From Leptolyngbyaceae cyanobacterium (lineage in GTDB: Bacteria; Cyanobacteriota; Cyanobacteriia; Cyanobacteriales; Aerosakkonemataceae): a stretch of 64,000 nt of DNA. Positions 46,542-64,000 of the stretch are shown piece by piece. The first letter of the stretch is position 1. Each line of letters opens with the position of its first letter. The DNA lies in assembly GCA_036703985.1 (NCBI GenBank), contig DATNQN010000089.1, positions 1-64,000 of the forward strand, read 5' to 3'. Below the pieces are notes generated by a model. The model saw only the letters and a program-made list of their open reading frames with translations, was not told the DNA's origin and did not search any database. Both the position numbers and the translations under genes were made by a program.

Positions 46542-48281
46542 ATGAGCGAAATGGATAAGAAAGCAAGTAATTTAGAGTTATTAGCTCAATATACTCACAT
46601 TCTGAACCAGCGCACTCAAGAAATCAACCAGTGGGTTGGCAAAGCCCGTATCAACTCACCCGAACTGCTAGAAGAATCTTTAGAAGAATTATGTACCACC
46701 GTAGAAGAAATGCAGATAGCTGAGGAGGAGTTGCGCTTACAAAACGAACAGTTAAGGGCGTCCCAGGAAGAACGATTAGCAGAACGACAGCGTTATCAAG
46801 ATTTATTTGAATTTGCACCCGATGCTTATTTAGTTACGGATGTGGATGGAAAAATTTTAGAGGCAAATTACGCTGCTGCCGAATTGTTTCAACTTTCCCA
46901 AGAATTCCTCATCGGTAAACCGTTAGTGTTATTTGTTACGCAAATAGGCCGACGCAACTTTTCCATTCAATTAATTCGACTTCAGGAAACAGACTGGTTG
47001 CAAAATTGGGAGATTACTTTACAACAGCGAAACGGTCAGATATTTGATGCTGCTATAAATGTAAAAGCGGTACGCGATCGCGACGGAAAAGCGATCGGTT
47101 TGCGTTGGTTGGTGCGAGATGTTACTATTCGCAAACGCCGAGAAGAAAGATTGCGACTGCTAGAGTCAGTAGTTGTTAATGCTAACGATGCCATCATTAT
47201 TACCGAAGCGCAGCCAATTGAGGAACCAGGGCCGCGCGTTTTATATGTAAACGAAGCCTTCACTCGGATGACAGGCTATACTTCCGAAGAAATATTGGGA
47301 AAAACTCCCCGCATTTTGCAAGGAGAAAACACCGATCGAACTACTCTGAATAAAATTCATACCGCACTGCTCGATTGGCAATCCATCGTAGTTGAACTGA
47401 TCAATTATCGTAAAGATGGATCGGAATTTTGGGTAGAAATGAGCATCGTACCGATCGCAAATGAAACTGGTTGGTATACTCACTGGATAGCGGTACAAAG
47501 AGATATTACCGATCGCAAGCAAGCAGAAAAACAAAAAATAGAAATCATTCGCGAACAGGTAGCGCGAGAAGAAGCGCAAGCAGCTAACCGCGCCAAAGAT
47601 GAGTTTATCGCCACCGTCTCCCACGAACTTCGCACGCCTCTACAAGCAGTGATCGGTTGGACTCAAATATTAAAGAGAAAACTGCTCGATCGCACCATGA
47701 TGAATCGCGCTTTAGAGACGATCGAACATAATGCCAAAATGCAAGCAAAACTGATTGAGGAATTGTTAGACCTGTCTCGGATCGCCCAAGGTAAAGTTGA
47801 TCTGAAGATGACTGCCATTTCTCTATGCCAAGTCATTGAAATCGCGATCGATACCTTACGTCCGATAATAGAAGCTAAAGAAATCCAACTCAATACCTAT
47901 CTAGACGATCGCGATGTTTCGATTTTGGGTGATGCGGAACGCTTGCGACAAGTGGTATCGAATTTGCTAACTAACGCGATCAAATTCACCCCGGACAGAG
48001 GAAATATCGAAGTTTCGCTTTATTACAACGATTCTCACGCTCAAATTATTGTCAAAGATAACGGTAAAGGCATCAGTGCAGAATTTTTACCTTACGTATT
48101 CGATCGCTTTCGCCAAGCGGACTGCCAAAATAGCAGTGCTCAAACAGGATTGGGATTGGGATTGGCGATCGCCCGTCAGTTAGTCGAAATGCACGGCGGT
48201 ACTATCCACGCAGATAGTCTCGGCGAAAATCAAGGCGCTACTTTTACCGTCCTATTACCTCTCAATGCTACCCCTGATTGA
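46542..48281 (+). CDS. Cytoplasmic PAS-PAS sensor histidine kinase
   Basis: The 579-aa protein starts with an N-terminal coiled coil (about 20-80, rich in Glu/Gln), a PAS domain (about 85-200, FEFAPDAYLVTDVDGKILEAN), a second PAS/PAC (about 210-335, with NEAFTRMTGYTSEEILGKTPRIL and AVQRDITDRKQ), and a kinase core (VSHELRTPLQAVIG with His near 366; NLLTNAIKFTPDRG, DNGKGI, GLGLGLAIARQL). The second PAS has the NEAFTRMTGY text of PAS domains but not the NCRFLQ motif of a LOV domain (it reads PRILQG), so flavin photochemistry is not supported. It has no membrane segment and no fused receiver. Confidence 0.92.
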   Translation: MSEMDKKASNLELLAQYTHILNQRTQEINQWVGKARINSPELLEESLEELCTTVEEMQIAEEELRLQNEQLRASQEERLAERQRYQDLFEFAPDAYLVTDVDGKILEANYAAAELFQLSQEFLIGKPLVLFVTQIGRRNFSIQLIRLQETDWLQNWEITLQQRNGQIFDAAINVKAVRDRDGKAIGLRWLVRDVTIRKRREERLRLLESVVVNANDAIIITEAQPIEEPGPRVLYVNEAFTRMTGYTSEEILGKTPRILQGENTDRTTLNKIHTALLDWQSIVVELINYRKDGSEFWVEMSIVPIANETGWYTHWIAVQRDITDRKQAEKQKIEIIREQVAREEAQAANRAKDEFIATVSHELRTPLQAVIGWTQILKRKLLDRTMMNRALETIEHNAKMQAKLIEELLDLSRIAQGKVDLKMTAISLCQVIEIAIDTLRPIIEAKEIQLNTYLDDRDVSILGDAERLRQVVSNLLTNAIKFTPDRGNIEVSLYYNDSHAQIIVKDNGKGISAEFLPYVFDRFRQADCQNSSAQTGLGLGLAIARQLVEMHGGTIHADSLGENQGATFTVLLPLNATPD

Positions 48282-48335: not shown

Positions 48336-50273
48336 TCATCCTGAAATTCCGTTCCGACTGACTGGAATTTCGATCGCGAATTCCGAACCTTTTCCCAATT
48401 CAGAATTACATTTAATTGTCCCCCGATGCTTTTCGACAATAATTTGATAACTAATAGATAATCCCAGTCCAGTTCCTTTGCCGACAGGTTTAGTCGTAAA
48501 AAACGGATCGAATAATCGATTTTTTACTGCTTCTTTCATACCAGAACCATTATCGGTAATAGAAATTAAAACTCGATCGCCTTGCATTTTAGGTTGGGAA
48601 ATCAACTCGGTATGGATTTTAATAATTCTCGGTGGCGATTGGTTTTCCAAAGCATCGATGGCGTTGACGATAATATTCATAAACACCTGATTTAATTGTC
48701 CGGCATAGCACTCTACCAAAGGTAGATTACCGTATTCTTTTATTATTTCTACTCCCGGATCGTGACCGCTGGCTTTTAACCGATTGTGCAAAATCAACAG
48801 AGTGCTATCAATTCCTTCATGAATATCGACGGGTTTCATTTCCGCTTCATCTAAGCGAGAGAAATTCCGCAGGGATAATACAATTTGGCGAATGCGTTCG
48901 GTTCCCATTTGCATAGAAGACAGCAGTTTGGGCAAATCCTCTCTAATAAATTCTAAATCGATATCTGCAATATAATTTTGGATATTTGGAACGGCGTTCG
49001 GATAACATTCTTGATAAATATCGAGCAACTCTAACAAATCTTTAATGTAGTCCTCAGCGTGAATGAGATTCCCATTAATAAAGTTAACTGGATTGTTAAT
49101 TTCATGGGCAATTCCCGCAATCATCTGCCCTAAACTAGACATCTTTTCTTGTTGTACTAGTTGAGATTGCGCTTGTTGTAATTTATATAAAACCGCACTC
49201 AAATGTTGGGCTTGCGTTTGTGCTGCTAGTGCGCTGGCGCGAGTTTGGGCGTAAAATTCCGCTTGATCGATCGCTACCGCTACTTGTTCGCATACCCCTT
49301 GGAGAAATTCCACTTCGCTATCACTCCAAGGACGCGCCCCCTGACAATGACTGCAAACAATCGCACCGTATTGACCTGTATGGGTTTTAAATGGTAGCAG
49401 CAGTTGAGCGGTAATGCCAAATTTAGTTAAAATTTGTTTGATTTCTTCGTCTAAATCAAATGCGGTAGCTACCTCATCAATCCGCATAATTTCTAAATTG
49501 CTGATTTGATGAAGGATGATATTGCTTTGGGGGGCTGGGAAATCTCCCATTAAACTGGGGAAGCTGCCATTTTGTACTTCATGAGTAATCGTAATCCGAG
49601 GCTCGATCGCGTTAGGAAAATACCATAAAAAATGACAGCGATCGATTTTCAATAATTTATGCACTTCCTGCAAAGCCGTTTCTAATATAGTATTGAAATC
49701 TAAAGACTGACGCAACTGACTTGCTAAATGCAGTAGTAAACTATCCCGGCGATCGCAAAGCGCTTTTTTGGCAAAAATTCGGTCGATTCCTAAGGCAATA
49801 TGATTCGCTACCCAACTTAAAAGAATGTCTTCTGCTTCCCGCAGAGATTGTTTCCCAAATAAGGCGATCGCTCCTAACAGATGGTTTTCCACGATTAAAC
49901 AGTACAAGCGATATTTAAAAGGCGCCACTTGGTAAGTAACGGGAATTAATTTTGGTTTAATTTCTTCTAATTCTAATGATGGTAAAAGCGTACTTTTAGT
50001 TATACTGGCAGTGTAAATTTTTTCTCCGGCAAATGCCGCCAAATTCAGTAAATTTGTCTGTTCGTCAAACGTCCAGATACAGACATTCGTCGCATCCAGA
50101 TAATGCGCGATCGTCTCCGCACAAACTTGCAGCGTTTCCGGTAAAGTTCTGCTTTCTAACAAAACCGACCCTATTTCAGCACCCAAAGTTAAGAGGTGAA
50201 TTGGTAATCCATCTAAATTATGTTCTCCCCGAACCATAGCCTGCATTTTTTTGGTTGACGATAGCTTAGCCAT
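48336..50273 (-). CDS. GAF-GAF sensor histidine kinase
   Basis: The 645-aa protein has two GAF domains (about 35-165 and 190-342), a coiled linker, and a kinase core with GIAHEINNPVNFI (His390), DGIDSTLLILHNRL, NIIVNAIDALE, DNGSGM and GTGLGLSISYQI. The second GAF carries CSHCQGARPWSD, similar to phytochrome-superfamily GAFs, but lacks the canonical Cys-His for bilin attachment, so it is probably not a photoreceptor. It has no membrane segment. It converges on the PAS kinase gene with 54 bases between stops. This H-box is the intact counterpart of the Tyr-containing one at 27,085-28,464. Confidence 0.92.
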   Translation of the reverse strand: MAKLSSTKKMQAMVRGEHNLDGLPIHLLTLGAEIGSVLLESRTLPETLQVCAETIAHYLDATNVCIWTFDEQTNLLNLAAFAGEKIYTASITKSTLLPSLELEEIKPKLIPVTYQVAPFKYRLYCLIVENHLLGAIALFGKQSLREAEDILLSWVANHIALGIDRIFAKKALCDRRDSLLLHLASQLRQSLDFNTILETALQEVHKLLKIDRCHFLWYFPNAIEPRITITHEVQNGSFPSLMGDFPAPQSNIILHQISNLEIMRIDEVATAFDLDEEIKQILTKFGITAQLLLPFKTHTGQYGAIVCSHCQGARPWSDSEVEFLQGVCEQVAVAIDQAEFYAQTRASALAAQTQAQHLSAVLYKLQQAQSQLVQQEKMSSLGQMIAGIAHEINNPVNFINGNLIHAEDYIKDLLELLDIYQECYPNAVPNIQNYIADIDLEFIREDLPKLLSSMQMGTERIRQIVLSLRNFSRLDEAEMKPVDIHEGIDSTLLILHNRLKASGHDPGVEIIKEYGNLPLVECYAGQLNQVFMNIIVNAIDALENQSPPRIIKIHTELISQPKMQGDRVLISITDNGSGMKEAVKNRLFDPFFTTKPVGKGTGLGLSISYQIIVEKHRGTIKCNSELGKGSEFAIEIPVSRNGISG

Positions 50274-50716: not shown

Positions 50717-51082
50717 ATGAAGCAAATTTTGGTTGTGGATGATTCAGCTACGATGCGACGGATGGTTATGGCATCCTTGCGAAATTTGAAAAATGTAAAT
50801 TTTAATGAAGCAAGTAACGGCCTAGAAGCTATTGAACGTTTGGTAATTTCACCAGTCAACTTAATGATTTTAGATCTGAATATGCCGGATATGCACGGAC
50901 TAGAAGTACTCAAGTTCGTGCGGTCTCATCAAACATATTGCCACATTCCGATTATGGTGTTAACCACCAGAGGAGACGACGCTAGCCGAGATGAAGCATT
51001 GAAGGCAGGTGCTTCCTGTTATTTAACCAAACCGTTCGAGCCACAAAAATTTGCTGCCCAAGCTAGAGAATTATTAGATTAA
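50717..51082 (+). CDS. cheY: CheY-type single-domain response regulator
   Basis: The 121-aa receiver has DDSATMRR at residues 8-15, the phospho-acceptor Asp53 in ILDLNMPDM, the switch Thr (VLTTRG) and Lys105 in YLTKPFEP. It has no output domain, so it should act by binding a target, as CheY does at motors or PilG does with type IV pili. It is the first gene of the cluster, 103 bases before cheA, with a strong ribosome binding site. Confidence 0.9.
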   Translation: MKQILVVDDSATMRRMVMASLRNLKNVNFNEASNGLEAIERLVISPVNLMILDLNMPDMHGLEVLKFVRSHQTYCHIPIMVLTTRGDDASRDEALKAGASCYLTKPFEPQKFAAQARELLD

Positions 51083-51185
51083 AACAATAGCATTCTTCAT
51101 TGGGTGATTGTTTTTATTAAATTGCCGATCGAATCGCTAACTAATACCCAATGCTCAACGCCCCATTGCCGATGCCATCTAGCCC

Positions 51186-53189
51186 ATGAATGATTTATTC
51201 GCTAGCTTTTTAGACGATTATTTTGCCGAATGTGACGAACACTTAACAGCGATTCGGCAAAACTTACTATTATTTGAACAATTTGTCAATCAACCGCCAA
51301 TCGATCGATCGCTACTGGACAAACTTTTCGTTAGCTTTCATTCCGTCAAAGGTTTGTCCGCAATGGTGGGATTGAAGGACGCCGAACGGCTAGCCCATGA
51401 AATGGAAAGCTATTTGCGAACTTTACGGGATAAGCAAGCAGTGCTCACTCCGGAAGGAATTGATGCTCTAATTAACAACACCAAAATGTTAGAGCAGGTA
51501 ATTAACGCCCATCGCGTTGAAAATGCGGGAAGGGAAGAGACAGGGGATAATTTTTCTGCGGTTCTCCCCATTCCGCCACCTCCTGTCTCCTTACCCGCGA
51601 TCGAACTAAAACCAGAAGAGTTAAAGCAATTAACTCGGGAACTGGCAAATGGAGCCAAAGCTTGGCAAGTCGAATTCGTACCGGGGCGGGAAAAAGCCGA
51701 TCGCGGTATCAACGTCAATACGATTCGCTCGCGCCTACAAGCGATCGGTCGGCTGATTCACGCATCTCCCAGAGCGATCGATAACACCGATATCGTCTTC
51801 GATTTCGTGATCGCTACTCACGCCGAAGCCAGCACTTTCGTCAATGGTGAAGAAGACGGACTCACTTATGCACCCTACATTTACCCAGAAACGACCCAAA
51901 GTGAAAACGCAAATGAAAAAATCACCGAAAGCATAGAAGAATCCGATCGCCAAACAGCCAGAATCGAGACACCAGGGAAAGCTGCTCCTCCTCCCTCCGC
52001 CATCCCCTCCAACGTGGTACGAGTCGATTTAACGCGATTGGATGAAATAATGCGGATTGTCGGAGAACTGGTAGTAACTCGCGCTCGTTTGGCCGAAAAT
52101 TTGAAAAATATCGCCGATATAGTTCCTGGTTCTCAATTACGCGCCTTGCGGGAAACCGCTTTTACTTTAGAACACCAGTTGCGAGACTTGCGAGATGGAG
52201 TAATGCGAGTCCGCTTAGTACCGATCGGAGAACTTTTTGCCCGAATGCAGTTTGCCATTCGCGATTTAGCAAAAGAAAGTCAAAAACAAATCGAACTGGA
52301 ATTAAGGGGTCAAAGCACTGAAATTGATAAGTTTCTAGTCGATCGAACCATCGATCCTTTATTGCATTTAGTGCGAAATGCCGTCAGTCACGGTTTGGAA
52401 TCGGAAGCAGAAAGGATCGCCGCAGGTAAACCAAAAGAAGGCAAAATTTGTTTGCGGGCTTCTACTGCCGGGGAAATGGTGATAATTGAAGTAGAAGATG
52501 ATGGACGGGGAATTGATGTAGAAAAAGTTACAAAGCGTGCGAAAGAGCAGGAATTGCTCGATGCTGATGCTACTCCGGATTTAGCCACGATATTAGATGT
52601 CGTTTGTTCTCCGGGTTTTTCTACACGGGAACAAGCAGATTTAACTAGCGGGCGCGGTGTGGGAATGGCGGTAGTCAAAAATACCGTGACCGAACTAGGT
52701 GGGTCGCTTGCCTTCGATACGGAAGTCGGGAGGGGAACGCGCTTTATCGTTCAATTACCGCTTACTTTAGCGATCGCGGATGCGTTAATCGTTTCGGTGG
52801 GCGGACAAACCTTTGCCATTCCTCAATCTGGCATCCGGGAAGTCGTGGAGGTGAAAAACAACGCGATCGCCTTGTGGGAAAACAGCGAAACGCTCGCCCA
52901 TCGAGGGGCTATTTTACCCCTAATTCGTCTGGGGCGGGTGTTTAACTTGCCGCCATTTCCCATTGCTGATTCGATCGCCATCATTAGCAACGGATTAAAT
53001 CCGATCGCGATCGCCGTCGATCGCATTCTTCGCCAACAAGAAATCGTAGTTAGACCATTAACAGATCCCCTCATCCAAATCCCCGGTATTTCCGGCGCTA
53101 CCGAACTAGGAGATGGGCAAGTAGTTTTAATTATCGATATCTTAGCATTAAGTAACTTTCCCAAAACCAAAATCCCGCATCATCATTAA
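51186..53189 (+). CDS. cheA: Chemotaxis-type histidine kinase CheA
   Basis: The 667-aa protein has an N-terminal Hpt domain with phospho-acceptor His52 in SFHSVKGLSAM, a poorly conserved middle (about 130-270) in the P2 position, a dimerisation domain starting at VRVDLTRLDEIMRIVGELV, a kinase lobe (about 370-505: LLHLVRNAVSHGLE, EVEDDGRGID, GRGVGMAVVK) and a CheW-like domain (about 515-660). It has one Hpt and no fused receiver, unlike the multi-Hpt PilL-type CheAs common in cyanobacteria. It phosphorylates CheY and probably CheB of this cluster. cheW starts 47 bases downstream. Confidence 0.93.
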   Translation: MNDLFASFLDDYFAECDEHLTAIRQNLLLFEQFVNQPPIDRSLLDKLFVSFHSVKGLSAMVGLKDAERLAHEMESYLRTLRDKQAVLTPEGIDALINNTKMLEQVINAHRVENAGREETGDNFSAVLPIPPPPVSLPAIELKPEELKQLTRELANGAKAWQVEFVPGREKADRGINVNTIRSRLQAIGRLIHASPRAIDNTDIVFDFVIATHAEASTFVNGEEDGLTYAPYIYPETTQSENANEKITESIEESDRQTARIETPGKAAPPPSAIPSNVVRVDLTRLDEIMRIVGELVVTRARLAENLKNIADIVPGSQLRALRETAFTLEHQLRDLRDGVMRVRLVPIGELFARMQFAIRDLAKESQKQIELELRGQSTEIDKFLVDRTIDPLLHLVRNAVSHGLESEAERIAAGKPKEGKICLRASTAGEMVIIEVEDDGRGIDVEKVTKRAKEQELLDADATPDLATILDVVCSPGFSTREQADLTSGRGVGMAVVKNTVTELGGSLAFDTEVGRGTRFIVQLPLTLAIADALIVSVGGQTFAIPQSGIREVVEVKNNAIALWENSETLAHRGAILPLIRLGRVFNLPPFPIADSIAIISNGLNPIAIAVDRILRQQEIVVRPLTDPLIQIPGISGATELGDGQVVLIIDILALSNFPKTKIPHHH

Positions 53190-53236
53190 CCAATATTTTC
53201 CATTAAATTACAGAGCGCAATTAAAGGATTTTTCTC

Positions 53237-53701
53237 GTGTTAGATCCTCAAACAAATTGGGAACCATATATTCTTTTTGAACTGGCTGACAGTACCTACG
53301 GCATCCCCGCCCACCTAGTTCAACAAATGGAAATGCTCGAGCGCATTACCCCCGTACCAAACGCTCCGCTTTTTCTAGAAGGAGTAGTTTTTTCTCGCGG
53401 CAAAATGATTCCTGCCGTCAACTTAAGAGTAAAATTCGGCCTGGATAAAATTGCCTACAATCTGCGTTCTCGGCTGATTGTCGTCAACATTGCCAATCGC
53501 TCTATCGGCTTAATTGTTGACTCGGCACGCGAATTCGTTAATATTCCGCACGACGCGCTCAAACCACCACCAGAAGGAATTTCTGAATTAAGCGCCAAAT
53601 ATTTATCAGGCATTGCTCTGTGGGAAAATCGAGTAATTTTAGTCCTTAATTTACCAGAAATCGTGAACGTGAATGGCCGTAGTTTAGTAGAAATGGGTTA
53701 A
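53237..53701 (+). CDS. cheW: CheW coupling protein
   Basis: The 154-aa protein is a single CheW domain: YILFELADSTYGIPAHLVQQ near the start, EGVVFSRGKMIPAVNLRVKFG, and LIVDSAREFVNIPHDAL. The start is GTG 53,237, preceded by AAAGGA 12 bases before; no in-frame ATG fits. It links the receptor to CheA. It is 64 bases before the receptor gene, so probably dedicated to it. Confidence 0.92.
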   Translation: MLDPQTNWEPYILFELADSTYGIPAHLVQQMEMLERITPVPNAPLFLEGVVFSRGKMIPAVNLRVKFGLDKIAYNLRSRLIVVNIANRSIGLIVDSAREFVNIPHDALKPPPEGISELSAKYLSGIALWENRVILVLNLPEIVNVNGRSLVEMG

Positions 53702-53765
53702 AAAACTAAAACCAAAATGACCGATTGACACTTAATAATTTTGTAATAATTCATCGAGAAATAAA

Positions 53766-55892
53766 ATGGCTAAAAATATAAAAAAATCTCCGAAAAAATC
53801 TGCGACTAGAAAGGGCGAATTGACGAGAAAAAAAGTCAAAAATCAACGGTTATCGAACGAAGTCGCTCTGATTTACCATCAAACCGAAGAAATAGCCAAA
53901 TTAACCGAACAAATTGCTCAAACGACAGAAATAGTCTCACAAGGCGTCGATACGCAAACGGGATCGCTCGAGGAAATTTTCAGCGGTACCAACCAATTGA
54001 CCGCATCCTTAAAAGAAACAGCCACCCAAGCAGAATCAGTCGCCACTTCCATCGAACAACTGGTTTCCGGCGCCAACGAAATGGCTGCATCCATCGAAGA
54101 AGTTACCGCCAACACCGTAGAATTAGCCGCATCGGTTAATCAAACTGCCACTTCGATCGAACAAACTACCAGTTCCATTCGGACTGTCGCCGACATCGCC
54201 CAAGAAATGGCAACTTCTGCCACCCAAGTTTCTACCTCGATGAACGAAATTGCCGCCTCTATCAAAACCGTTAACAAAGACACCGAATCTTTAGTCACGT
54301 CGGTGAACGAAACGGCTGCTTCTGTAGAGCAGATTACCCGTTCGATTCAAAGCGTAGCGCAAAACTCCCAAGACGTGAGCAATGCAGCGGAAAGAACCAC
54401 TTCCTCCATCAACGAAATGGCTGCATCGATCGAACAAGTTTCCGCCACATCGGAAAACTTATCAGCTACGGTAGAAACCGTATCCAATTCTATGGAAGAA
54501 ATAGCGCGATCGATCCAGGGAGTCGCCCAAAATGCCGCTCAAATTACCGATGCAGCAAATAACGCCGCCACTAGCGCCACCCAACTCGATCGATCGATCC
54601 GTTCCGTCAGCCACCTTACCAAACAAGCAGATGAAATCAGTACCCGCGTAGCGCGAGATGCAGAAATCGGCGGCGCCACCATTCAAAAATCAATTCAAGG
54701 TTTCATTCGAGTGCGAAACTCAATGGCTGAATCAGCCGATACGATCCGAAACATGGGCAAACGTGCCAGCGAAATCAGTACCATCATCGATACGATCGAT
54801 ATCATCGCCGAACGCACTAACTTACTATCTTTAAATGCCTCGATCGAAGCCGCCCGCGCCGGAGAAGCAGGGCGAGGTTTTGCCGTAGTAGCAGAAGAAA
54901 TTCGCAACCTAGCAGAAAGGGCAGCCCAAGCAACGACAGACATTGCCGCTATTATTAAATCCCTCCAAGAAGTAAGTCAAGAAGCGGTGAATAAATCTAA
55001 TGAAGGAATGGGACTCGCCGAAGAAAGCAGCCGTTTAGTAGAAGATGGGGCGGCTGGATTAACAACTATTTTGTCAGGAGTCCGAGAAACTACCCAAATA
55101 GTGCGTCAAATTGCCCTAGCTTCTCAAGAACAATTAACCGCCGGACAAAATGTAGTAACCGCCATTAATACCACCGTTCAGCAAGCCAAAGAAGTTGCCC
55201 AAGCTACGCAAGAACAAGCCAAATCAGCCCAATACATCGTGCAATCCACTACACAAATGCGGAAAATTGCCCAAGAAGTTTCCCATGCTACTAACGAACA
55301 AGGGCGTGCGGCCAGAGATATTATTAAAGCAGCGCAAATAACTACTACTTTAGCGATGCAAGTTCGCAAAGCAACCTCCGAACAAGTTAATGGAGTAAAT
55401 CAAATTTTGCAAGCGGTAGAACTAATGCGTCGCGGCGCATTGAACACGTCTCGCGCTTTAGCCGAACAAAGTACTGGCGGAGAACAAATTGCTAAAGAAG
55501 CAGAACGCCTTAACCGTTTAATTAATAATGTTACTAAGGCAATGACCGAACAATCTAGCGCTGCTACTCAAATCACGGTTGCCGTCGAAAATGTCCGCCG
55601 CCAAACCGATCGAACTGCTAAAGCAATGACAGAACAAACACGGGCAGTCAAAGAGATCTCTACTGGTACTCACAATATTTCCAAACAGGTTGCCCTCATT
55701 CACCGCGCTAACCGAGAAAATTCCAGCGTGGCTAATATTATTACGACTAATTTAAGTAACATTCGGTCTGTGAGCGAACGGAACGGGCAAGGAGTCAAAG
55801 AAATTCAACGGTCGGTTTTGACTCTGCAAGAAAAGTCGCGAAATTTCATAAATATTGCTGAGGAATTAAGAAATAAGCTACTACCCATTTAA
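53766..55892 (+). CDS. Membrane-free, sensorless methyl-accepting chemotaxis protein
   Basis: The 708-aa protein has a Lys-rich N-terminus and then nothing but Ala/Ser/Thr/Glu heptads. There is no membrane segment, HAMP or recognisable ligand domain. The signalling tip ([20 protein letters not shown], then [18 protein letters not shown]) is at about residues 348-390, almost the midpoint, so about 345 residues on each side form the two antiparallel arms. Glu/Gln-containing segments such as TSIEQL and AASIEEV recur and may include methylation sites for the CheR/CheB encoded downstream. Sensing must come from a partner; the PAS-HEAT gene follows directly. Confidence 0.92.
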
Positions 55893-55920
55893 TTTGAATA
55901 TTTAGGCTGATGGGTAGGTG

Positions 55921-56056
55921 GGTGCAGGGGTGCAGGGGTGCAGGGGTGCAAGAGAAATAAATACAATTAATTTTCATCCTTTATCCTTCAAACTTCATCC
56001 TTTATCCTTCATCCTTCAAACTTCATCCTTTATTTTCAATCTAAAATCTAAAATCG
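55921..56056. repeat. Spacer with GGTGCAGG, CTTCATC and AATCTAA tandem repeats
   Basis: Three repeat types lie back to back between the mcp and PAS-HEAT genes. An 8-base unit GGTGCAGG is repeated nearly four times (55,921-55,950). Heptamers TTCATCC/TTATCCT/TTCAAAC fill 55,974-56,036. Two AATCTAA units plus AATCG (56,038-56,056) end one base before the ATG. Confidence 0.78.
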
Positions 56057-56057
56057 A

Positions 56058-58805
56058 ATGTCTGATGGCACTTTAATTAGTATTTTCACAACTGACGCCG
56101 CTCTGCTCGTGCAATCCTGGGATGATTGGCTAACCGAAATTACGGGATTATCGGAACCAGAGGTGCGGGGAATTAGTTTAACTAAATTGATTCCGGAATT
56201 AGAAAGTAATGGCATTTTACCTTATTTCGAGAGGGTACTGAAAAATGGAGACATAGAAACGATTCCCCATGCAGTTCAGCCTTATTTATTTAAATGTCAG
56301 CCTGCTGGTTTTTCACCTCATTTTGAATCGATGCAGCAAAGGATCGCGATCGCGCCTTTAAGAGAAAATGATGCGATCGTCGGTCTCGTAGTGACGATCG
56401 AAGACGTGACAGATCGGCTGAATCTCACTCGAGATATTGCTCTCAAACTAGCCAGCACTGATGAAACCGTGCGCTTGCGGGCAACGGAAGCACTTTCTAC
56501 CGCCCAAGTGTTAGAACCAGAAGCAATGCTGGTGAAAATGCTAGGGGATAGCAGTTGGCGAGTGCGACGGGCGGCTGTCGATGCTTTAGCAAAACACACC
56601 GGTTCGTCTTTGGCAATGTCTTTGCTGCGAAGCCTGCGGGAACAACATCGGAACCCCAGCGTTTTAAATGGTGTTTTGCAAGTTTTATCTCATAGCAAAG
56701 TCGATATTATTCCCGCCCTGATCGATTGTTTGAATTCCGAAGATAAAGATTTGCGAATCTACGCGGGATTAGCATTGGGAGAACAGCAAGACAGCCGTTG
56801 TATTCCTGCCTTAATTCGCAGTTTAGAAGATGAAGATATCAACGTGCGGTATCACGCCATCGATGCTTTAGGCAAAATGCGGGCGTCCGGGGCGATCGAA
56901 AAATTGCTCGCGATTGCCGAGTCGGGTGATTTCTTTTTAGCATTTCCAGCTTTAGATGCCCTAACTCGGATCGGCGATCCGACGATCGCCCAACGACTGA
57001 TTCCCTTACTAGAGGATGAATTACTTTGTACTGCCGGGGCTGATGCTTTAGGACAATTGGGGGATAGCAGCGTCGTGCCTTCTCTAGCAGTATTGTTGAA
57101 TCGAACAGACGCACCCGTGATGGTAGCCGCCGGTGCTTTAGCCACCCTGTACGATCGCTACGAAAGTACCTATGGCGAAGGTAACTATATTATCGAGTTA
57201 GCTACGGAGTCGATCGACGATCGGGGAATGGAAAACCTGGTGAATGGTGTTGCCACCGCCGGTTCCGATGAATTAAAAGCGATCGTGTTGCTACTGGGTA
57301 AAATGGAGGGGACATTAGTAGAACGTACCCTTACCCAACTACTCGGTCAGCAAACCGTGCGTTCTTCCGTGGTAGAATCTCTCGTCCGCCACGGCAGACA
57401 AGTCACTGAGTTATTGATCGAACAACTCAACAGCGATGATATTGAAATTCGGCGGGCAGCCGCGATCGCTTTGGGCAGAATCGGCGACCCGCGTTCCGTA
57501 TCGGCTCTCACTCGCCTGTTAACCGCCGATCCGGAATTAATGGTGATCGTGGCGGGGGCTTTAGCCCAAATCGGCGATCGTCGCGCTTTCGATACCCTAC
57601 TCGATTTAATCGGTCATCCCGATGCAGCCGTGCGTTTAGCCGTGGTAGCCGCCCTCAATTCTTTGGGCCATCCCGATATGCTGATTCGCACGATCGACCT
57701 TTTGCAAGACCAAAATCCCCACATCAGGGAATCGGCAGTGAAAATTGCCGGTTATTTTGCCTTCAACGAATGCGTCACACTCCTATTAGATCGGTGTCGC
57801 GATCCCGATGAAAACGTGCGACGGGCTGCGATCGAACTAATTCCTTATCTGGAAAACGCCCCCGTACTGCCGACCCTGATCGCCGCTTTAGAAAAAGAAA
57901 CCCCGAAAGTGCGGGCCGCCGCCGCCCGTGCCTTGGGACAAATGGAAAGCGTCCTCGCTTATCCTTACCTGCTAAGTGCTTTGAAAGATGAAGATGCTTG
58001 GGTGCGCTATTACGCCACCCGCGCGATCGGTTGGAATGGCTACCCGGAAGCGATCGAAGTTTTGGCCAAAGCCGCCGTCAGCGACCCCGCCCACCAAGTA
58101 CAAATTGCTACCGTAGAAGCACTGGGACGAATTGGCGGCCCGAGAGCAGTGACGATTCTGGCTCCCATCGTGGAAAATATCAACGCCAGCAGCGATTTAG
58201 TGCGCGTAACTTTGACCGCATTGGGAGAAATCGGTCATCCGAATTCCCTACCGCCGCTTTTATCGGCAACGCGATCGCTCGATCCCTATCGCCGCATCCA
58301 CGCCGCCCGCGCCTTGGGTAAACGAGGCGGTACGGGAGTGGAGTCAGCACTGCAAGAGTTGGCGAATAAAGACCCGGAAGTGGGAGTGGTATTTTCCGCG
58401 ATCGAAGCATTAGCCCAATTAGCCACTCCGGATGCGATCGCCGCTTTGCTAGAACTGACGGCTAATCCCACTCGCAACGAAGCTTGTATCGTCGCCTTAG
58501 CTAATTTGGGTGAAGAACAAATCGAAGCGATCGGACGGGGGCTAACTCATTCCCATGCCAAAGTCAAGCGTGCGGTAGTAGAAGTCTTGATGCGCCTCAA
58601 ACATCCCCGCGCTTCCGAACTTCTGATCGCCGCCTTGGATGACAGAGACACTTCCGTTCGCTTAGCCGCCGTCAATGCCTTAAATCACTTGGGTAACCGT
58701 TATGCAGAACGCAAAATGGCGATTTTGGCTCACACAGACCCCGACCCTGCCGTGCGTCGCGCTGCACAAAAAGGCGCAAAAACCATCGCGGATTTTGGAT
58801 TTTAA
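56058..58805 (+). CDS. PAS-HEAT repeat protein in the chemosensory cluster
   Basis: The 915-aa protein has an N-terminal PAS-like domain (about 1-122; DWLTEITGLSEPEVRG and a PAC-like end GLVVTIEDVTDRLNL) followed by about 22-24 HEAT (PBS-lyase type) repeats to the C-terminus, seen as recurring VRRAAVDAL, VRYHAIDALG, IRRAAAIALGRIG and VRLAAVNALNHLG. It has no kinase, receiver, methyl-accepting or membrane segment. HEAT solenoids bind proteins, so this may be a scaffold or sensory partner of the membrane-free receptor just upstream (inference). The gene lies between mcp and cheR, same strand. Phycobilin lyase activity is not implied. Confidence 0.88.
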   Translation: MSDGTLISIFTTDAALLVQSWDDWLTEITGLSEPEVRGISLTKLIPELESNGILPYFERVLKNGDIETIPHAVQPYLFKCQPAGFSPHFESMQQRIAIAPLRENDAIVGLVVTIEDVTDRLNLTRDIALKLASTDETVRLRATEALSTAQVLEPEAMLVKMLGDSSWRVRRAAVDALAKHTGSSLAMSLLRSLREQHRNPSVLNGVLQVLSHSKVDIIPALIDCLNSEDKDLRIYAGLALGEQQDSRCIPALIRSLEDEDINVRYHAIDALGKMRASGAIEKLLAIAESGDFFLAFPALDALTRIGDPTIAQRLIPLLEDELLCTAGADALGQLGDSSVVPSLAVLLNRTDAPVMVAAGALATLYDRYESTYGEGNYIIELATESIDDRGMENLVNGVATAGSDELKAIVLLLGKMEGTLVERTLTQLLGQQTVRSSVVESLVRHGRQVTELLIEQLNSDDIEIRRAAAIALGRIGDPRSVSALTRLLTADPELMVIVAGALAQIGDRRAFDTLLDLIGHPDAAVRLAVVAALNSLGHPDMLIRTIDLLQDQNPHIRESAVKIAGYFAFNECVTLLLDRCRDPDENVRRAAIELIPYLENAPVLPTLIAALEKETPKVRAAAARALGQMESVLAYPYLLSALKDEDAWVRYYATRAIGWNGYPEAIEVLAKAAVSDPAHQVQIATVEALGRIGGPRAVTILAPIVENINASSDLVRVTLTALGEIGHPNSLPPLLSATRSLDPYRRIHAARALGKRGGTGVESALQELANKDPEVGVVFSAIEALAQLATPDAIAALLELTANPTRNEACIVALANLGEEQIEAIGRGLTHSHAKVKRAVVEVLMRLKHPRASELLIAALDDRDTSVRLAAVNALNHLGNRYAERKMAILAHTDPDPAVRRAAQKGAKTIADFGF

Positions 58806-58821
58806 ATAGGTAACAATTAAC

Positions 58822-58914
58822 TTGTCATCGGTCATTGGTGATTTGTCATTTGTGAATATTTATCCACCATTGACCGATGACTAATGACCGATCGCCAAAA
58901 TCTAAAATCTAAAA
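58822..58914. repeat. GTCATTGGT words and AATCTAA array before cheR
   Basis: From 58,822 the words GTCATCGGTCATTGG and TTTGTCATTTG occur, then inversely TTGACCGATGACTAATGACCGAT, forming an imperfect inverted repeat. Two AATCTAA units follow at 58,899-58,912, ten bases before the cheR ATG. Both are dispersed cyanobacterial repeat types. Confidence 0.7.
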
Positions 58915-58923
58915 TTTATTAAA

Positions 58924-59766
58924 ATGCTATTCATTTCCGAAACGCTCGATTTACCTGATGGCTCATTTACACTTTTAAGGGATTTAATTCACGAACGGAC
59001 GGGTATTTCTTACGAAAATGAAAACCGCGACCTGCTAGCAGACAAACTTTCTCCCCGCGTAGTAGCTTGCGGATTTGATTCTTTTTTAGATTACTATTAC
59101 CTGCTAAAATATGATGATGCCGGCCAACAAGAATGGAAACACGTTATGGATGCCATCTCGGTACAAGAAACTTTTTTTTGGCGGGAGATGGATCAAATTG
59201 AAGCGTTAGTTAAAGTATTAGTTCCTGAATATTTTGCCGCTCAATCAAAACAACCGCTCCGAATTTGGAGCGCTGCTTGCGCTACCGGAGAAGAACCATT
59301 AACGATCGCAATGGCTCTTAACGAAGCTGGTTGGTTCGAGCGGGCAAACATTGAAATTTTGGCCAGCGATGCCAGTCAAAGCGCTATTAATAAAGCTAAA
59401 GCTGGCATTTATCGAAAACGCTCTTTCCGCAATTCATCGCCCATTTTACAACAAAAATATTTCCAAAGTTTGGAAGAGGAAAAATGGCAAGTCATTCCGG
59501 AAATTCAAAATAAAATCAAGTGGAATACAGCCAATTTAATGGTAGAATCAGAAATTAAACATTTGGCGCAATCTCCCATTATATTTTGTCGTAACGTGTT
59601 TATTTATTTTTCGGAAAAATCCATTCAGAAAACCATTGAAGTGTTTTATAAAAATATGCCAAAACCCGGTTACTTGTGTATTGCTGCTGCCGAATCTTTA
59701 TTAAAATTAACGAATTATTTTGAATTGCGAGAAATCGGGGGTGCTTTTATATATGTAAAACGTTAA
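58924..59766 (+). CDS. cheR: CheR-type receptor methyltransferase
   Basis: The 280-aa protein has the CheR N-terminal helical domain (about 10-80, FTLLRDLIHERTGISY) and the SAM-binding domain with IWSAACATGEEPLTIAM near 117-133 and IIFCRNVFIYFSEK near 220-233. SVQETFFWREMDQ corresponds to the conserved T-x-F-F-R region. The usual CSTGEEPYS is CATGEEPLT, a mild change. No TPR or C-terminal tether-binding insert is obvious. It should methylate Glu residues of the MCP at 53,766. Confidence 0.92.
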   Translation: MLFISETLDLPDGSFTLLRDLIHERTGISYENENRDLLADKLSPRVVACGFDSFLDYYYLLKYDDAGQQEWKHVMDAISVQETFFWREMDQIEALVKVLVPEYFAAQSKQPLRIWSAACATGEEPLTIAMALNEAGWFERANIEILASDASQSAINKAKAGIYRKRSFRNSSPILQQKYFQSLEEEKWQVIPEIQNKIKWNTANLMVESEIKHLAQSPIIFCRNVFIYFSEKSIQKTIEVFYKNMPKPGYLCIAAAESLLKLTNYFELREIGGAFIYVKR

Positions 59767-60044
59767 ATAAGTGTCGAACGGATAGAATGAAGAAATTATT
59801 TTAATTCAAACGTATATATGATGGTTCTTTCTGGTTAATTTTAAATAGGATTGGGAAGCGGTTAGTAATGGATGGAGGGGTTGCCAGCAAAAAATATAAT
59901 GAACGGAAAAAAAGGGTTTCAAGCCTCCCCTTGCAAGGGGAATTATCCAAGAAGTTCTTGCTTATTTCAAGCTCCGCCCGATCGTTGCCCAGCCAATCTA
60001 AAATCTAAAATCGAATGACCGATCGCTAATAACGAGTAATTATT
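59767..60044. repeat. Spacer with CCCCTTGCAAGGGG palindrome and AATCTAA array
   Basis: A 14-base perfect palindrome CCCCTTGCAAGGGG lies at 59,927-59,940, resembling the core of the MITEs at 11,761 and 22,603. Two AATCTAA units plus AATCG (59,995-60,013) lie 32 bases before the cheB ATG. No gene is seen. Confidence 0.65.
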
Positions 60045-61085
60045 ATGGCTCAATTAATACGTGTTTTAGTAGTAGACGACTCTGCTTATGTGCGAAAAAC
60101 GATCAAACAAATGCTATCTCGAAGCCCGTTTATCGAAGTAGTTGGTGTGGCACGCGACGGCAAAGAAGCTTTAGAAATGGTGGCACAACTTAAGCCAGAT
60201 GTAGTGACATTGGACTTAATCATGCCCAACATGAATGGAGTGGAATTCTTACGGGAGCAAATGAAAAAAAAACCTTTGCCAGTAATTATCGTGAGTATTG
60301 CTAGTGAAAACGGCGAAATGACTTTGGAAGCGCTGGATGCCGGAGCGGTTGATTTCTTACAAAAACCAACTGCTTTAGCCACCGAAAAAGTCTTTCAAAT
60401 TGCCGATGAATTAATTCAAAAAGTCAAAGCGGCTGCTAATATACGTTTAAGCAATTTACCGACCGGCAATCAACAAGAATGTATTCAGAATTTGCCGACT
60501 AAGGTACAAGCAAATACAGTTGATATAGTAACGATCGGCATTTCTACAGGTGGGCCACAAGCACTTTCTTTTTTAATTCCTCAATTACCGGAAAGCTTTC
60601 CCGTACCGATCGCGGTCGTTTTACATATGCCAGTGGGCTACACGGAAATGTACGCCCAGAGATTAGATGCCATATCAGCTTTAAATGTAGTAGAAGCCAA
60701 AGAAAACGATCTGGTGATTGCTGGTAAAGTATTGATCGCTCCAGCGGGAAAACATCTGAGTTTCATTCGTCGATCGAATGGTAAAGTAGTGACCCATCTC
60801 GATGCCCGTCCTTTCGATACCCTGCATCGTCCCAGCGTAGATGTATTATTTCAATCCGCCGCCGAAGTGTATCGCGATCGCGTTTTGGGCGTAGTGATGA
60901 CCGGAATGGGATCGGATGGCAAACAAGGGTCAGCTTGGATTAAATCGCTTGGTGGTTTAATTTTTACCGAATCCGAAGAAACTTGCGTAGTTTACGGGAT
61001 GCCTCGCGCGGTAGTAGAAGCTTCTTTAAGCGATCGAACTGTACGCTTGGATAAAATGGCATCAGCAATTATGGAAGTTTTGTAA
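60045..61085 (+). CDS. cheB: CheB-type receptor methylesterase/response regulator
   Basis: The 346-aa protein has an N-terminal receiver (VVDDSAYVRK, phospho-Asp57 in VTLDLIMPN, Lys in FLQKPT) and a C-terminal methylesterase domain with all three catalytic residues: Ser167 in IGISTGGPQA, His194 in LHMPVGY and Asp291 in MTGMGSDG. It removes or deamidates the methyl-ester sites that CheR modifies, and is itself activated by CheA. With cheR it shows that this cluster has full adaptation ability. Confidence 0.95.
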   Translation: MAQLIRVLVVDDSAYVRKTIKQMLSRSPFIEVVGVARDGKEALEMVAQLKPDVVTLDLIMPNMNGVEFLREQMKKKPLPVIIVSIASENGEMTLEALDAGAVDFLQKPTALATEKVFQIADELIQKVKAAANIRLSNLPTGNQQECIQNLPTKVQANTVDIVTIGISTGGPQALSFLIPQLPESFPVPIAVVLHMPVGYTEMYAQRLDAISALNVVEAKENDLVIAGKVLIAPAGKHLSFIRRSNGKVVTHLDARPFDTLHRPSVDVLFQSAAEVYRDRVLGVVMTGMGSDGKQGSAWIKSLGGLIFTESEETCVVYGMPRAVVEASLSDRTVRLDKMASAIMEVL

Positions 61086-61427: not shown

Positions 61428-64000
61428 ATGCGATCGTACTTGCCATTTCATCGGCTGAAAATCCCTCTCCGGCTGTTCTTAGTCGTTCCCTTCCTCCTGC
61501 TGCTGGTAATCACCGTCGGAGTTACGAACTACTTTTCAATTCAAAATAGTCGGGAATCGGTGCAAGAACTGGCGCACCAGTTGATGACGGAAGTTAGCGA
61601 TCGCGTTCGCCTCTACCTGGATAATTATTTAGAACAACCTCACCGAATCAATAATCGCAACGCTAAGTCGATCGATTTCCATCAACTCGATCTGCGTCGC
61701 TTGGATGAAGTAGAACGATATCTGATTTGGCAAAGCTCTAACTTCGATTACATTCCAGGCATTGTTTATGCGAACGAACGGGGAGATTTTAGAATTGCCG
61801 AGTCCTCTAATGGTGTCAAGTCAATTTGGGTAACAGATAGCCCCAATATTAGAAAATTTGCTCAATACTCCATCACTGCTGATGGAAAACGAGGTCAATT
61901 ACTCCAAATGGGAGAATATCCGCCAGACTGGGATATTCGACAACGCTCTTGGTATAAATTAGCCAAACAAAAAAAACAAAGTACTTGGAGTTCGGTTTAT
62001 CCGTTGGGTGATGGTAGCGACTTAACTATTAATGCTAGTTTACCCGTTTACGATTCCATCACCAAAGAATTCATCGGCGCTTTTGCGGTGAAGTTGCCTT
62101 TGAGTAAATTAAATCAATTTCTCAAAAATTTGAAATTGGGCAATTCCGGGCTATTTTTTCTGATGGAACCGAATGGTTATTTAATCGCCAGTTCGACAGA
62201 TGAATTGCCTTTTATTAAAACTCCAGATGGAAAATTCAAAAGAATTTTAGCAACCGAAAGCCAACATCCCTTAATCCGTTCTGTCAGTCAATATCTAGCA
62301 TCGCAATTGAAAGATGTGAGCGCGATCGACCAACTAAAAACATTAGATTTTCCGATCGACAATCAAACCTATTGCGTACAAATACAGCCATATAAAGATC
62401 GGCATGGATTGAATTGGTTGCTAGTAACGATCGTGCCGAAATCCGATTTTATGGCGGAGATCGATGGCAATACCCAGCATACGATTCGGCTGACAGTATT
62501 GGCAGCGATCGCAGCGATTTTATGCGGGATGACGATCGCCAATCGAATTGCCAGTCCGATGTTACTGCTCTCTCAAACCTCAGCGGCAATGGCGCGAGGC
62601 AATTTAAATTTGCAAATGCCGGAAGATATGCCAGTGCGGGAACTAGCGCTAATGGCGCGTTCCTTTAACTTGATGGCGCAACAATTGCGAGCAGCTTTCG
62701 ATCGCATCAACACCGATCTGCAAGAATCGGAATCCAGATATGCCATCATCTTTCGCAACAGTCCCGATCCGGTGAGCATCACCACTTTAGAGGATGGACG
62801 CTGGATTGATGTCAACAATAGTTTTTTGGAAGTCAGCGGTTATAGCTATGAAGAAATCATCGGTAAAACCGCACTAGAAACTAATTTTTTGATTGATTTG
62901 TCTCAGGGAGAAGCGATCGTCAGAGAACTTAAAGAAACCGGTATTGTCAGAAATCAAGAATTTCACTGGCGGACTAAATCCGGTGAAATTAAAGTATCCC
63001 TCGTTTCTTGTGAAATCATCGAAATCGCCGGCGAAACTTACGTTCTTAATATAAGTAAAGAAATTGGCGAAATCAAAAAAGTAGAAGAGGCATTGCGTCA
63101 AAGCGAAGCACGATTTCAGGAAATCGTCAAAACCATCAGCCAACTTTTCTTCGTGCGATCGGCAATTACCGGACAATTTATTTATATTAGTACTGCTTAC
63201 GAACGAATTTGGGGACGTAGTTGTGAAAGTTTGTATGAAAACCCTCAATCGTGGGCACAAAGCATTCATCCAGAAGATCGCGCCTCGGTAGAAAAATCTC
63301 TGCAAATCCAATGGGCGGGAAATTCTGTTGCGCGAGAATACCGAATTATTCGACCGAATGGGGAAATTCGGTGGATATTTACTCAAATTAATCTAGTGAG
63401 AGATGAAGCGGGTAATCCATCTAATTTTATCGGTTTTGCTACGGATATTACCGATCGCAAACATCTGGAATTGGCGCTGCAAAAATCGGAAGCCAAATTG
63501 AGCGATATTATTAACAGCCCGATCGCATCGATCGTCCGCATTCAAATGTTTGCCGATCGCAATTGGAATATCGATTACCTTTCAGCAGGTTGCGAAACGA
63601 TCTTTGGCTATACCGTAGAGGAATTTTTTCAAGAAAAAACCATTTGGCTCGCCAGAATAATGCCAGAAGATCTAGAAAATACGATTCTACCTTTATTCGA
63701 TCGAGTGTTGATCGAGCCGATCGTCACTTGCGAGTATCGTTTCTATCGCAAAGATGGCAGCTTGCGCTGGTTATCTGCCAGAATGACTTGTCGATATGAC
63801 GCGGATTTTAATTGTTGGTGGATCAACCAGTTTACCGTCGATATCACCGATCGCAAAACCTTAGAAAAAGAACTCGCATTCCGAGAAGCTCAACTAAATG
63901 CCTTTTTTAATTGTGCGCCCCTCGGTCTTAATATAATCGATGACGAATTGCGATTTGTCAAAATCAACGCACCCTTGGCAGAAATTAATGGAGTACCGAT
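61428..64000 (+). CDS. Cache-HAMP-multi-PAS sensor protein, 3' end outside the window
   Basis: From ATG 61,428 the frame is open for 857 codons to the window edge. The N-terminus has a membrane helix (about 14-35, LFLVVPFLLLLVITVGVTNY), an extracytoplasmic dCache-type domain (about 40-345, with RQRSWYKLAKQ and FIGAFAVKLPLSKLNQFL), a second helix (about 352-372), a HAMP domain (about 372-425) and then at least four PAS/PAC units (about 435, 560, 685 and 820 onward, with ITDRKHLE and ITDRKTLEKE linkers). The C-terminal output is missing; a histidine kinase is the most likely ending. It may be part of the chemosensory cluster or simply follow it. Confidence 0.9.
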   Translation, partial: MRSYLPFHRLKIPLRLFLVVPFLLLLVITVGVTNYFSIQNSRESVQELAHQLMTEVSDRVRLYLDNYLEQPHRINNRNAKSIDFHQLDLRRLDEVERYLIWQSSNFDYIPGIVYANERGDFRIAESSNGVKSIWVTDSPNIRKFAQYSITADGKRGQLLQMGEYPPDWDIRQRSWYKLAKQKKQSTWSSVYPLGDGSDLTINASLPVYDSITKEFIGAFAVKLPLSKLNQFLKNLKLGNSGLFFLMEPNGYLIASSTDELPFIKTPDGKFKRILATESQHPLIRSVSQYLASQLKDVSAIDQLKTLDFPIDNQTYCVQIQPYKDRHGLNWLLVTIVPKSDFMAEIDGNTQHTIRLTVLAAIAAILCGMTIANRIASPMLLLSQTSAAMARGNLNLQMPEDMPVRELALMARSFNLMAQQLRAAFDRINTDLQESESRYAIIFRNSPDPVSITTLEDGRWIDVNNSFLEVSGYSYEEIIGKTALETNFLIDLSQGEAIVRELKETGIVRNQEFHWRTKSGEIKVSLVSCEIIEIAGETYVLNISKEIGEIKKVEEALRQSEARFQEIVKTISQLFFVRSAITGQFIYISTAYERIWGRSCESLYENPQSWAQSIHPEDRASVEKSLQIQWAGNSVAREYRIIRPNGEIRWIFTQINLVRDEAGNPSNFIGFATDITDRKHLELALQKSEAKLSDIINSPIASIVRIQMFADRNWNIDYLSAGCETIFGYTVEEFFQEKTIWLARIMPEDLENTILPLFDRVLIEPIVTCEYRFYRKDGSLRWLSARMTCRYDADFNCWWINQFTVDITDRKTLEKELAFREAQLNAFFNCAPLGLNIIDDELRFVKINAPLAEINGVP

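Follow-up and report, generated by a model that had tools for sequence, protein, structure and literature searches.

The window analysed here, a stretch of 64,000 nucleotides of contig DATNQN010000089.1 from a Leptolyngbyaceae cyanobacterium (assembly GCA_036703985.1), contains at positions 50717-61085 seven open reading frames (ORFs) on the plus strand, in the order cheY-cheA-cheW-mcp-HEAT-cheR-cheB. This cluster is probably a chemosensory system of the type known as Che7 in Myxococcus xanthus, in which phosphorylated CheY would act on a solenoid of HEAT repeats as the output. Because the seven genes stand in the order of Myxococcus Che7, the HEAT protein is probably the partner of CheY and no chance insertion, and the output reading is preferred because Cpc7, a HEAT protein of M. 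xanthus, is reported to interact with CheY7 (PMC11514114, citing Darnell 2014). The published M. xanthus che7 locus tags (CheB7 6959, CheR7 6960, Mcp7 6962, CheW7 6963, CheA7 6964, CheY7 6965; PMC3945109) leave one gene, 6961, exactly at the position of the HEAT gene, and judged by this position Cpc7 would be MXAN_6961 and take the HEAT place of Che7.

The cluster and its CheA

The initial annotation had described a one-strand chemosensory cluster of seven genes with intact key residues, and the ORFs, with the same coordinates, the Pfam matches and a residue check all bear this out. The seven products match, in gene order, Response_reg; Hpt, H-kinase_dim, HATPase_c and CheW; CheW; MCPsignal; HEAT repeats; CheR_N and CheR; and Response_reg with CheB_methylest. 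CheY D53, CheA H52 and CheB D57, S167, H194 and D291 are intact, and the ATP-binding motifs of CheA, the CheR motif and the tip of the receptor (methyl-accepting chemotaxis protein, MCP) are also present (table 1).

Table 1. Genes and protein regions of the chemosensory cluster in the window
Feature	Position	Strand	Description
cheY	50717..51082	+	121 residues; Che7-type single-domain response regulator; Pfam Response_reg
cheA	51186..53189	+	667 residues; Hpt (P1) with H52, P2-like linker (by eye), P3, HATPase and CheW domain; no receiver
cheW	53237..53701	+	154 residues; GTG start
mcp	53766..55892	+	708 residues; long receptor of heptad repeats without transmembrane helix; N-terminal tail rich in lysine
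mcp, basic N-terminal tail	53766..53855	+	residues about 1-30
PAS-HEAT gene	56058..58805	+	915 residues; Cpc7-like; putative CheY partner
PAS-HEAT, PAS domain	56058..56408	+	N-terminal; about residues 1-117
PAS-HEAT, FFLAFPA stretch	56931..56951	+	residues 292-298; common to most Che7-type HEAT proteins
cheR	58924..59766	+	280 residues; receptor methyltransferase
cheB	60045..61085	+	346 residues; receiver and methylesterase

The likeness to M. xanthus Che7 extends to the components and their order, the single-domain CheY, the CheA without a receiver, the long receptor without transmembrane helices and the presence of both CheR and CheB; CheA7 has 683 residues and no receiver, and Mcp7 has 821 residues and no transmembrane helices (PMC3945109). 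The CheAs of both groups are also joined in a tree of 76 cores, which were selected by us from 123 distinct ones and did not include the Gemmatirosa and G998 copies described below (L, G and C numbers denote loci, genomes and contigs of the comparison). In this tree the CheA of the window groups with 21 further cyanobacterial sequences (support 99) and 12 myxobacterial CheA7 proteins form another group (100), and these 22 and 12 sequences together lie on one side of a branch with a value of 98 in the Shimodaira-Hasegawa-like approximate likelihood ratio test (SH-aLRT). The tree was made by a quick method that gave several long-branch warnings, and it was midpoint-rooted; therefore it shows a branch, not a clade. 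The five other CheAs of the window's genome fall on the far side of this branch, and 15 sampled CheAs from a second class of myxobacterial clusters (see below) fall outside it. Membership of the CheA of the window in another known class is less likely, as it stands apart from the other CheAs sampled, and a recent transfer between Cyanobacteria and Myxococcota is not supported because each forms a group of its own.

Distribution in cyanobacteria

The comparison genomes called cyanobacterial here belong to the same family or order according to the search tool. A search with the HEAT protein gave matches in 12 of 60 relatives at E ≤ 1e-100 and in at least six of 386 genomes of the phylum at E ≤ 1e-60. 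Because a HEAT query selects for the presence of HEAT, the survey was repeated with CheA, which matched in at least 37 of 388 genomes of the order at E ≤ 1e-95 (38 matches in all, as the genome of the window has two) and in at least six of 386 genomes across the phylum at E ≤ 1e-90; these are the identical six genomes found in the HEAT survey. The frequencies for the order and the phylum are lower bounds, since few candidates were scored per genome (two in the HEAT survey of the phylum, three in the CheA surveys, and, for the surveys described below, six in Myxococcota and five in the phylum of Geomobilimonas). With six matching genomes of 386 in the phylum surveys, the system is patchy.

Two of the 38 loci selected by CheA stop before the position of the HEAT gene (L236, L252), and in 35 of the 36 that can be assessed HEAT directly follows mcp, the exception being L234, which has no HEAT gene. 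The alternative of a chance neighbour, which would have been favoured by absence of the gene beside orthologous clusters, is thereby rejected, and the view of the initial annotation that the HEAT gene belongs to the system is upheld. That it had been "inserted" there is wrong, because the gene occupies the same position in Myxococcota and Gemmatimonadota.

The full order is found in 26 of 37 further cyanobacterial loci. Among the remaining ones, cheY is doubled in L028, contig ends cut L025, L029, L031, L034, L236 and L252 (the contigs of L025 and L031 stop before the expected cheR), and L234 has neither cheY nor HEAT. There is no separate cheW in L179 (3812-6391) and L180 (3322-6024), because CheA continues at its C-terminus into CheW; this fusion is a natural indication that the two proteins pair. 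In L030 no cheB was found within the 3.4 kb left before the contig end. Apart from these missing, cut or doubled genes, the CheA frame of L251 is fragmented. The component profiles used for these assignments were built from the best BLAST hit per locus, so that the CheB profile includes hits from loci without a seen cheB (L025, L030, L031, L168) and the CheY profile includes one unrelated CheY (L029). Che7-type CheYs score at least 172 on the CheY profile, whereas others score at most 123; the CheY of L274 scores 142, and the score of 165 for L029 is an artefact of its own inclusion in the profile.

In the exception L234, from genome G035, cheA, cheW, mcp, cheR and cheB are retained, cheY is gone, and the HEAT position is held by a KaiC-like ATPase and a histidine kinase on the opposite strand (named by sequence reading). 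Searches of the whole G035 genome gave no Che7-type HEAT protein (best E 8e-14) and no Che7-type CheY (the best-scoring match is 32% identical, the highest 38%). Because three genes separate cheY from HEAT, their joint loss needs at least two removals.

Other phyla

For M. xanthus itself, Myxococcus vastator, Pyxidicoccus and further relatives were used as stand-ins. The Che7 order is seen in M. vastator (L168/L169, two contigs split within the HEAT gene), in Pyxidicoccus fallax (L170), where consecutive frames touch or overlap in an operon-like manner, and in Corallococcus praedator (L172) as far as the contig reaches. In the survey of Myxococcota at least 56 of 144 genomes matched the HEAT query at E ≤ 1e-25, and loci were retrieved from all 56; by profile scores 45 genomes (46 stretches) were taken as Che7-type and 11 as the second class. 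Thirty-seven of the 46 Che7-type stretches keep the full order. The nine others have a broken HEAT frame (L220, L224), are pieces at contig ends (L168, L169, L172, L215, L221) or, in our reading, owe an apparent change of order to overlapping frames alone (L181, L208). The second, related class combines two CheW proteins with a shorter HEAT protein before cheR-cheB; it includes L171, L173-L176, L222, L223 and L225-L233, and it is also present in two genomes reached via Geomobilimonas and strain IMCC39146. In 22 of the retrieved myxobacterial loci che7 has a neighbouring gene that resembles fatty acid desaturases, to judge by histidine boxes (for example L170 15075-16121).

In the phylum of Geomobilimonas luticola the receptor query matched at least eight of 198 genomes at E ≤ 1e-55, and the two that were retrieved (G998 and G842, both possibly mis-binned) contain a complete set that includes PAS-HEAT and a receptor with a charged tail (G998, L273) and a more distant set with identical order by profile hits (G842, L274). 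Among 72,556 plasmid records the receptor query gave one match at E ≤ 1e-60, on plasmid 2 of Gemmatirosa kalamazoonensis (Gemmatimonadota; NZ_CP007130.1; one megabase, complete), which carries the full cheY-cheA-cheW-mcp-HEAT-cheR-cheB (L275 5983-15575) with a PAS-like N-terminus of the HEAT protein. The gene order thus occurs in at least three phyla, Cyanobacteria, Myxococcota and Gemmatimonadota. Gemmatirosa and the window are 62% identical in CheY, 44% in CheA, 48% in CheW, 51% in MCP, 43% in HEAT, 48% in CheR and 59% in CheB; for Pyxidicoccus the values are 52% in CheY, 47% in CheB, 37% in MCP and CheR, 36% in CheW and 32% in HEAT and CheA. The MCP of the window is 54% identical to that of G998, and 51% and 37% to those of Gemmatirosa and myxobacteria, and the G998 and Gemmatirosa plasmid copies, closer to the window than the myxobacterial ones, may be transfers.

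CheY is the best conserved component between the window and Myxococcales (52-54.5%, versus 31-47% for the others). The CheY of the window is 83% identical to that of L023, 62% to Gemmatirosa (L275), 61% to L273, 54.5% to M. vastator (L168) and 52% to Pyxidicoccus (L170), versus 28-40% to the other CheYs encountered.

After cheB, a small receiver protein and a weak match to the HEAT profile are encoded in L026 (13736-17761), L027 (14008-18028), L273 (1069-3422) and L275 (15580-17731). The weak match covers the PAS part only in L026 and L027, and L273 also has a CheC/CheX-like ORF (named by eye) after cheB. These proteins are possibly a further branch of the Che7-type pathway.

The PAS-HEAT protein

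In the protein of the window taken alone the PAS domain is weak: the NCBIfam sensory_box match reaches 21.2 bits against a cut-off of 22.9, and Pfam gives no PAS match at E 0.001. Among 26 homologues, 12 match PAS_4 and eight match PAS (E 0.01). The AlphaFold2 model (mean predicted local distance difference test score, pLDDT, 88.8; predicted template modelling score, pTM, 0.65) has a PAS-like order of strands and helices at residues 7-116 and then helices from residue 118 to 912, about the extent of the HEAT part. Sequence matches and predicted fold therefore agree on an N-terminal PAS domain. It is present in 22 of 24 aligned cyanobacterial HEAT proteins (24 of the 35 known) and absent from L242, from the additional copy that the genome of the window has in L029 and from both aligned myxobacterial proteins; in this fusion the window differs from M. 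xanthus Che7. The idea that the PAS fusion is a cyanobacterial novelty was dropped, as G998 and Gemmatirosa seem to carry PAS too, judged by the first residues of the HEAT proteins of L273 and Gemmatirosa.

A fold search with the HEAT model returned general HEAT solenoids (CAND1, karyopherins, SF3b), with template modelling scores of about 0.2-0.3. One short stretch, FFxxF[PSA][AS], is found in all 34 cyanobacterial HEAT proteins other than that of the window, which also has it, and in 42 of 43 myxobacterial ones of at least 500 residues; none of 16 second-class proteins has it. It is doubled in 17 of the 34 cyanobacterial proteins, in agreement with a repeated first HEAT block. As the motif was chosen after the alignment had been viewed, these counts are a description and no test. 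The stretch could be a docking site. It is present in L273; as a universal signature it was dropped, being missing in L274 and in Gemmatirosa (L275).

The receptor

The receptor of the window has a maximum 19-residue hydropathy of 0.78 and thus no transmembrane helix, and Pfam finds no ligand-binding domain in it. Its first 35 residues contain 12 Lys/Arg and two Asp/Glu, a positive tail like that of FrzCD; the tail is weaker in some relatives, for example L034 with seven Lys/Arg and six Asp/Glu. No proline occurs between residues 10 and 706. A hydropathy period of 3.5 is the strongest in each 56-residue block across residues 31-702, with the weakest block at 311-366, and the heptad pattern spans these residues as 96 heptads. 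Among 28 receptors (26 cyanobacterial and two myxobacterial) there is one single-residue insertion (L028) in residues 45-640. Glu-Gln pairs stand at positions 455, 483, 511, 539, 567, 595 and 623, a spacing of exactly 28, with Gln in 28 of 28 receptors at each and Glu in 22-28; the mirror positions 277, 249, 221, 193, 165, 137, 109 and 81 have Ser in 28, 28, 28, 28, 24, 24, 26 and 22 of 28. This pattern fits an in-register hairpin with a bend near residue 366. The structure model of the receptor is poor (mean pLDDT 67.8, pTM 0.29), leaves the hairpin unresolved and can be used only for the statement that the protein is almost all helix.

The 96 heptads exceed the classes in MiST3, which range from 24H to 64H (PMC6943060). 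In a published assignment all M. xanthus receptors except DifA and McpK are of class 40H (PMC3945109); this points the other way, and the whole coil may therefore be longer than the formal class of the receptor core.

Whereas 32 of 37 cyanobacterial receptors lack it, five begin with a hydrophobic helix (L026, L027, L028, L031, L234). Most of the 32 start with MAK-, MAR- or MGK- and have 4-12 Lys/Arg in the first 35 residues, with acidic residues nearly as many as basic ones in some (L034); for L032, L235, L239, L249 and L255 the ORF used begins upstream of the likely start. A tree of 26 cyanobacterial receptors has two changes between helix and tail, but one change is also compatible with it, and recurrent switching of the N-terminus was not upheld. 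Most myxobacterial relatives and Gemmatirosa have receptors with neither charged tail nor helix. The cyanobacterial receptors thus differ from those of Che7 in length (about 700 residues instead of 821-860) and in having a charged tail or a single hydrophobic helix. The initial annotation had proposed a distinct cytoplasmic array. Distinctness holds, as the system is adaptation-competent, has a single Hpt and stands apart from the five other CheAs of its genome; a receptor lying freely in the cytoplasm is uncertain, given the basic tail here and the helix in five of 37 cyanobacterial receptors.

FrzE of the M. xanthus Frz system is a CheA-receiver hybrid and the Frz gene set differs from the one described here. 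The likeness to Frz lies in the receptor, since FrzCD has no membrane domain and binds DNA through a positively charged N-terminal tail (PMC5716589). Mcp7 of M. xanthus forms mobile subpolar clusters (PMC3945109).

What does the HEAT protein do?

According to the proposed mechanism, the long receptor without transmembrane helices and CheW would control CheA, which would phosphorylate CheY and CheB. CheR and CheB would methylate and demethylate the receptor, probably among the regularly spaced Glu-Gln positions, and so provide adaptation. Phosphorylated CheY would dock on the HEAT solenoid of the same cluster, in the place of Cpc7, and switch what the solenoid holds, so that the output would pass from protein to protein; as the solenoid carries its own PAS domain, it would combine the signal from CheY with that of a ligand or cofactor of PAS. 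The contact between CheY and HEAT in cyanobacteria is proposed by analogy with M. xanthus, and the methylation sites, the anchoring of the receptor and the final output are likewise putative. Because Che7 of M. xanthus is reported to affect development, our guess for the downstream process, again by analogy, is a developmental or stress response ahead of a motor.

The initial annotation had favoured a sensory or scaffold protein, and such an input role is an alternative to which we give limited credence. In it PAS would sense redox, light or a metabolite, and the solenoid would dock on the sensor-less receptor or on CheW and set the activity of CheA. It would agree with a receptor in which Pfam detects no ligand-binding domain, with PAS in most of the aligned cyanobacterial HEAT proteins and, by first residues, in L273 and Gemmatirosa, and with the position of HEAT after mcp in all assessable cyanobacterial loci but one. 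However, the two aligned myxobacterial proteins and the own-genome L029 copy have no PAS, and G035 has lost the HEAT gene yet keeps receptor, CheW, CheA, CheR and CheB, which fits an output part better. The role is made less likely by the loss of HEAT together with cheY in that lineage and by the reported interaction of Cpc7 with CheY7, though the PAS domain could still provide sensory input. A much less probable alternative is that the HEAT part is of the phycobilisome type, like NblB or CpcE, and conveys the condition of the light-harvesting antenna to the pathway. The host looks cyanobacterial and the best NCBIfam matches are indeed NblB (162 bits) and CpcE (114 bits), but these scores are far below the curated cut-offs (300 and 330 bits), and homologous genes occupy the identical place in Myxococcales and Gemmatirosa, which are not known to have phycobilisomes.

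The remaining alternative is a taxis system, in which CheY and HEAT would target a motor for movement, either type IV pili or the gliding machinery, with HEAT as the motor adaptor, as proposed in haloarchaea; this is a special case of the output reading, with which its probability overlaps, and we regard it as rather improbable. Cyanobacterial type IV pilus chemosensory systems (Pix/Tax, Pil-Chp and Hmp) share the CheA-CheW-MCP core, and other CheA clusters of the window's genome could serve motility, which counts against this alternative. The five other CheAs have 957-2008 residues in four cases and 842 in one, and no ORF beside them in the stretches read had the HEAT protein of the window as its best match. 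In haloarchaea the HEAT_PBS protein OE2401F, encoded at the che locus, is essential for motor switching and needed between the Che system and its output (PMC2666748); it is likened here by context and not by sequence, and unlike the system of the window it serves an archaellum motor and works with CheF (DUF439). A link to motility is also suggested by a cheW7 mutation that restores exopolysaccharide in a M. xanthus difA mutant (PMC4319316). On the other hand, Che7 of M. xanthus is described as associated with a HEAT protein and required for coupling aggregation and sporulation (PMC9040617).

Several observations weigh against the preferred reading of a Che7-type system with HEAT as CheY output. 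The joint loss of cheY and HEAT was seen in a single lineage, represented by a draft genome in 90 contigs that is 92% complete. The CheA core of the window is no closer in plain identity to myxobacterial CheA7 (37-40%) than to the second class (37-41%), and the grouping of the cyanobacterial and myxobacterial CheAs therefore rests on the tree and the gene order. The HEAT repeats diverge rapidly, with 32% identity between the window and Pyxidicoccus, and the FFxxFP stretch is absent from L274 and L275. None of the 37 cyanobacterial loci has a neighbouring Des7-like desaturase gene, another difference from M. xanthus Che7, and outputs may for this reason differ. Other HEAT proteins bind phycobiliproteins, and PAS could make the HEAT protein an input. 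Finally, the intergenic gaps of the cluster are 47-278 bases and a scan for promoter- and terminator-like sites gave chance level, so that the operon is putative.

More broadly, and as a tentative proposal that we hold to be possible but doubtful, there may be a "HEAT-output" chemosensory class that spans Cyanobacteria, Myxococcota and Gemmatimonadota and probably extends to the phylum of Geomobilimonas. The receptor hairpin of this class would comprise roughly 94-96 heptads, about 2.6 times the 36 heptads of Escherichia coli Tsr and beyond the 64H of MiST3, with polar layers that recur at intervals of 28 residues and consist of Ser in one arm and Gln in the other; the cyanobacterial array would be held on DNA by the basic tail or on the membrane by one helix, and a CheY-gated HEAT solenoid would also read PAS. 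It predicts that, in cryo-electron tomography, the distance between base plate and anchoring surface would be much greater than in E. coli.

What had looked like an orphan cyanobacterial cluster can thus be defined, and tested, as a homologue of a developmental pathway of myxobacteria, and the comparison suggests that CheY output through HEAT solenoids recurs, alongside output through motors and receiver chains. The joint loss of cheY and HEAT, and the charged tail versus the hydrophobic helix on otherwise similar receptors, offer a natural experiment. Among the matches listed in a literature search, mostly open papers, no title or abstract opening names a Che7-type or HEAT-containing che cluster in cyanobacteria, which is weak evidence of novelty.

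Genome context

A second Che7-type cluster lies on contig C82 of the same genome (L029); its HEAT protein has no PAS, and its CheA and receptor group with L242, from another family. The cheY position of L029 would fall beyond the contig end, and no second Che7-type CheY was found among the 150 of 235 candidates scored in this genome. A further adaptation-competent cluster on contig C54 (L035 7500-19712) has cheR, a double-CheW protein, three mcp, cheA and cheB, and contigs C7 and C70 carry a cheB and a cheR, respectively; the cluster of the window is thus not the sole adaptation-competent set of the genome.

The host assignment fits the window itself, in which GCGATCGC, which we take to be the cyanobacterial HIP1 repeat, occurs at 51 sites versus 0.92 expected and a BicA bicarbonate transporter is encoded at 8784-10448 (996 bits against a curated cut-off of 880). 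The cluster is flanked by sensor kinases, a PAS kinase at 46542-48281 and a GAF kinase on the minus strand at 48336-50273, and downstream (61428-64000) a long PAS-rich frame runs past the end of the window.

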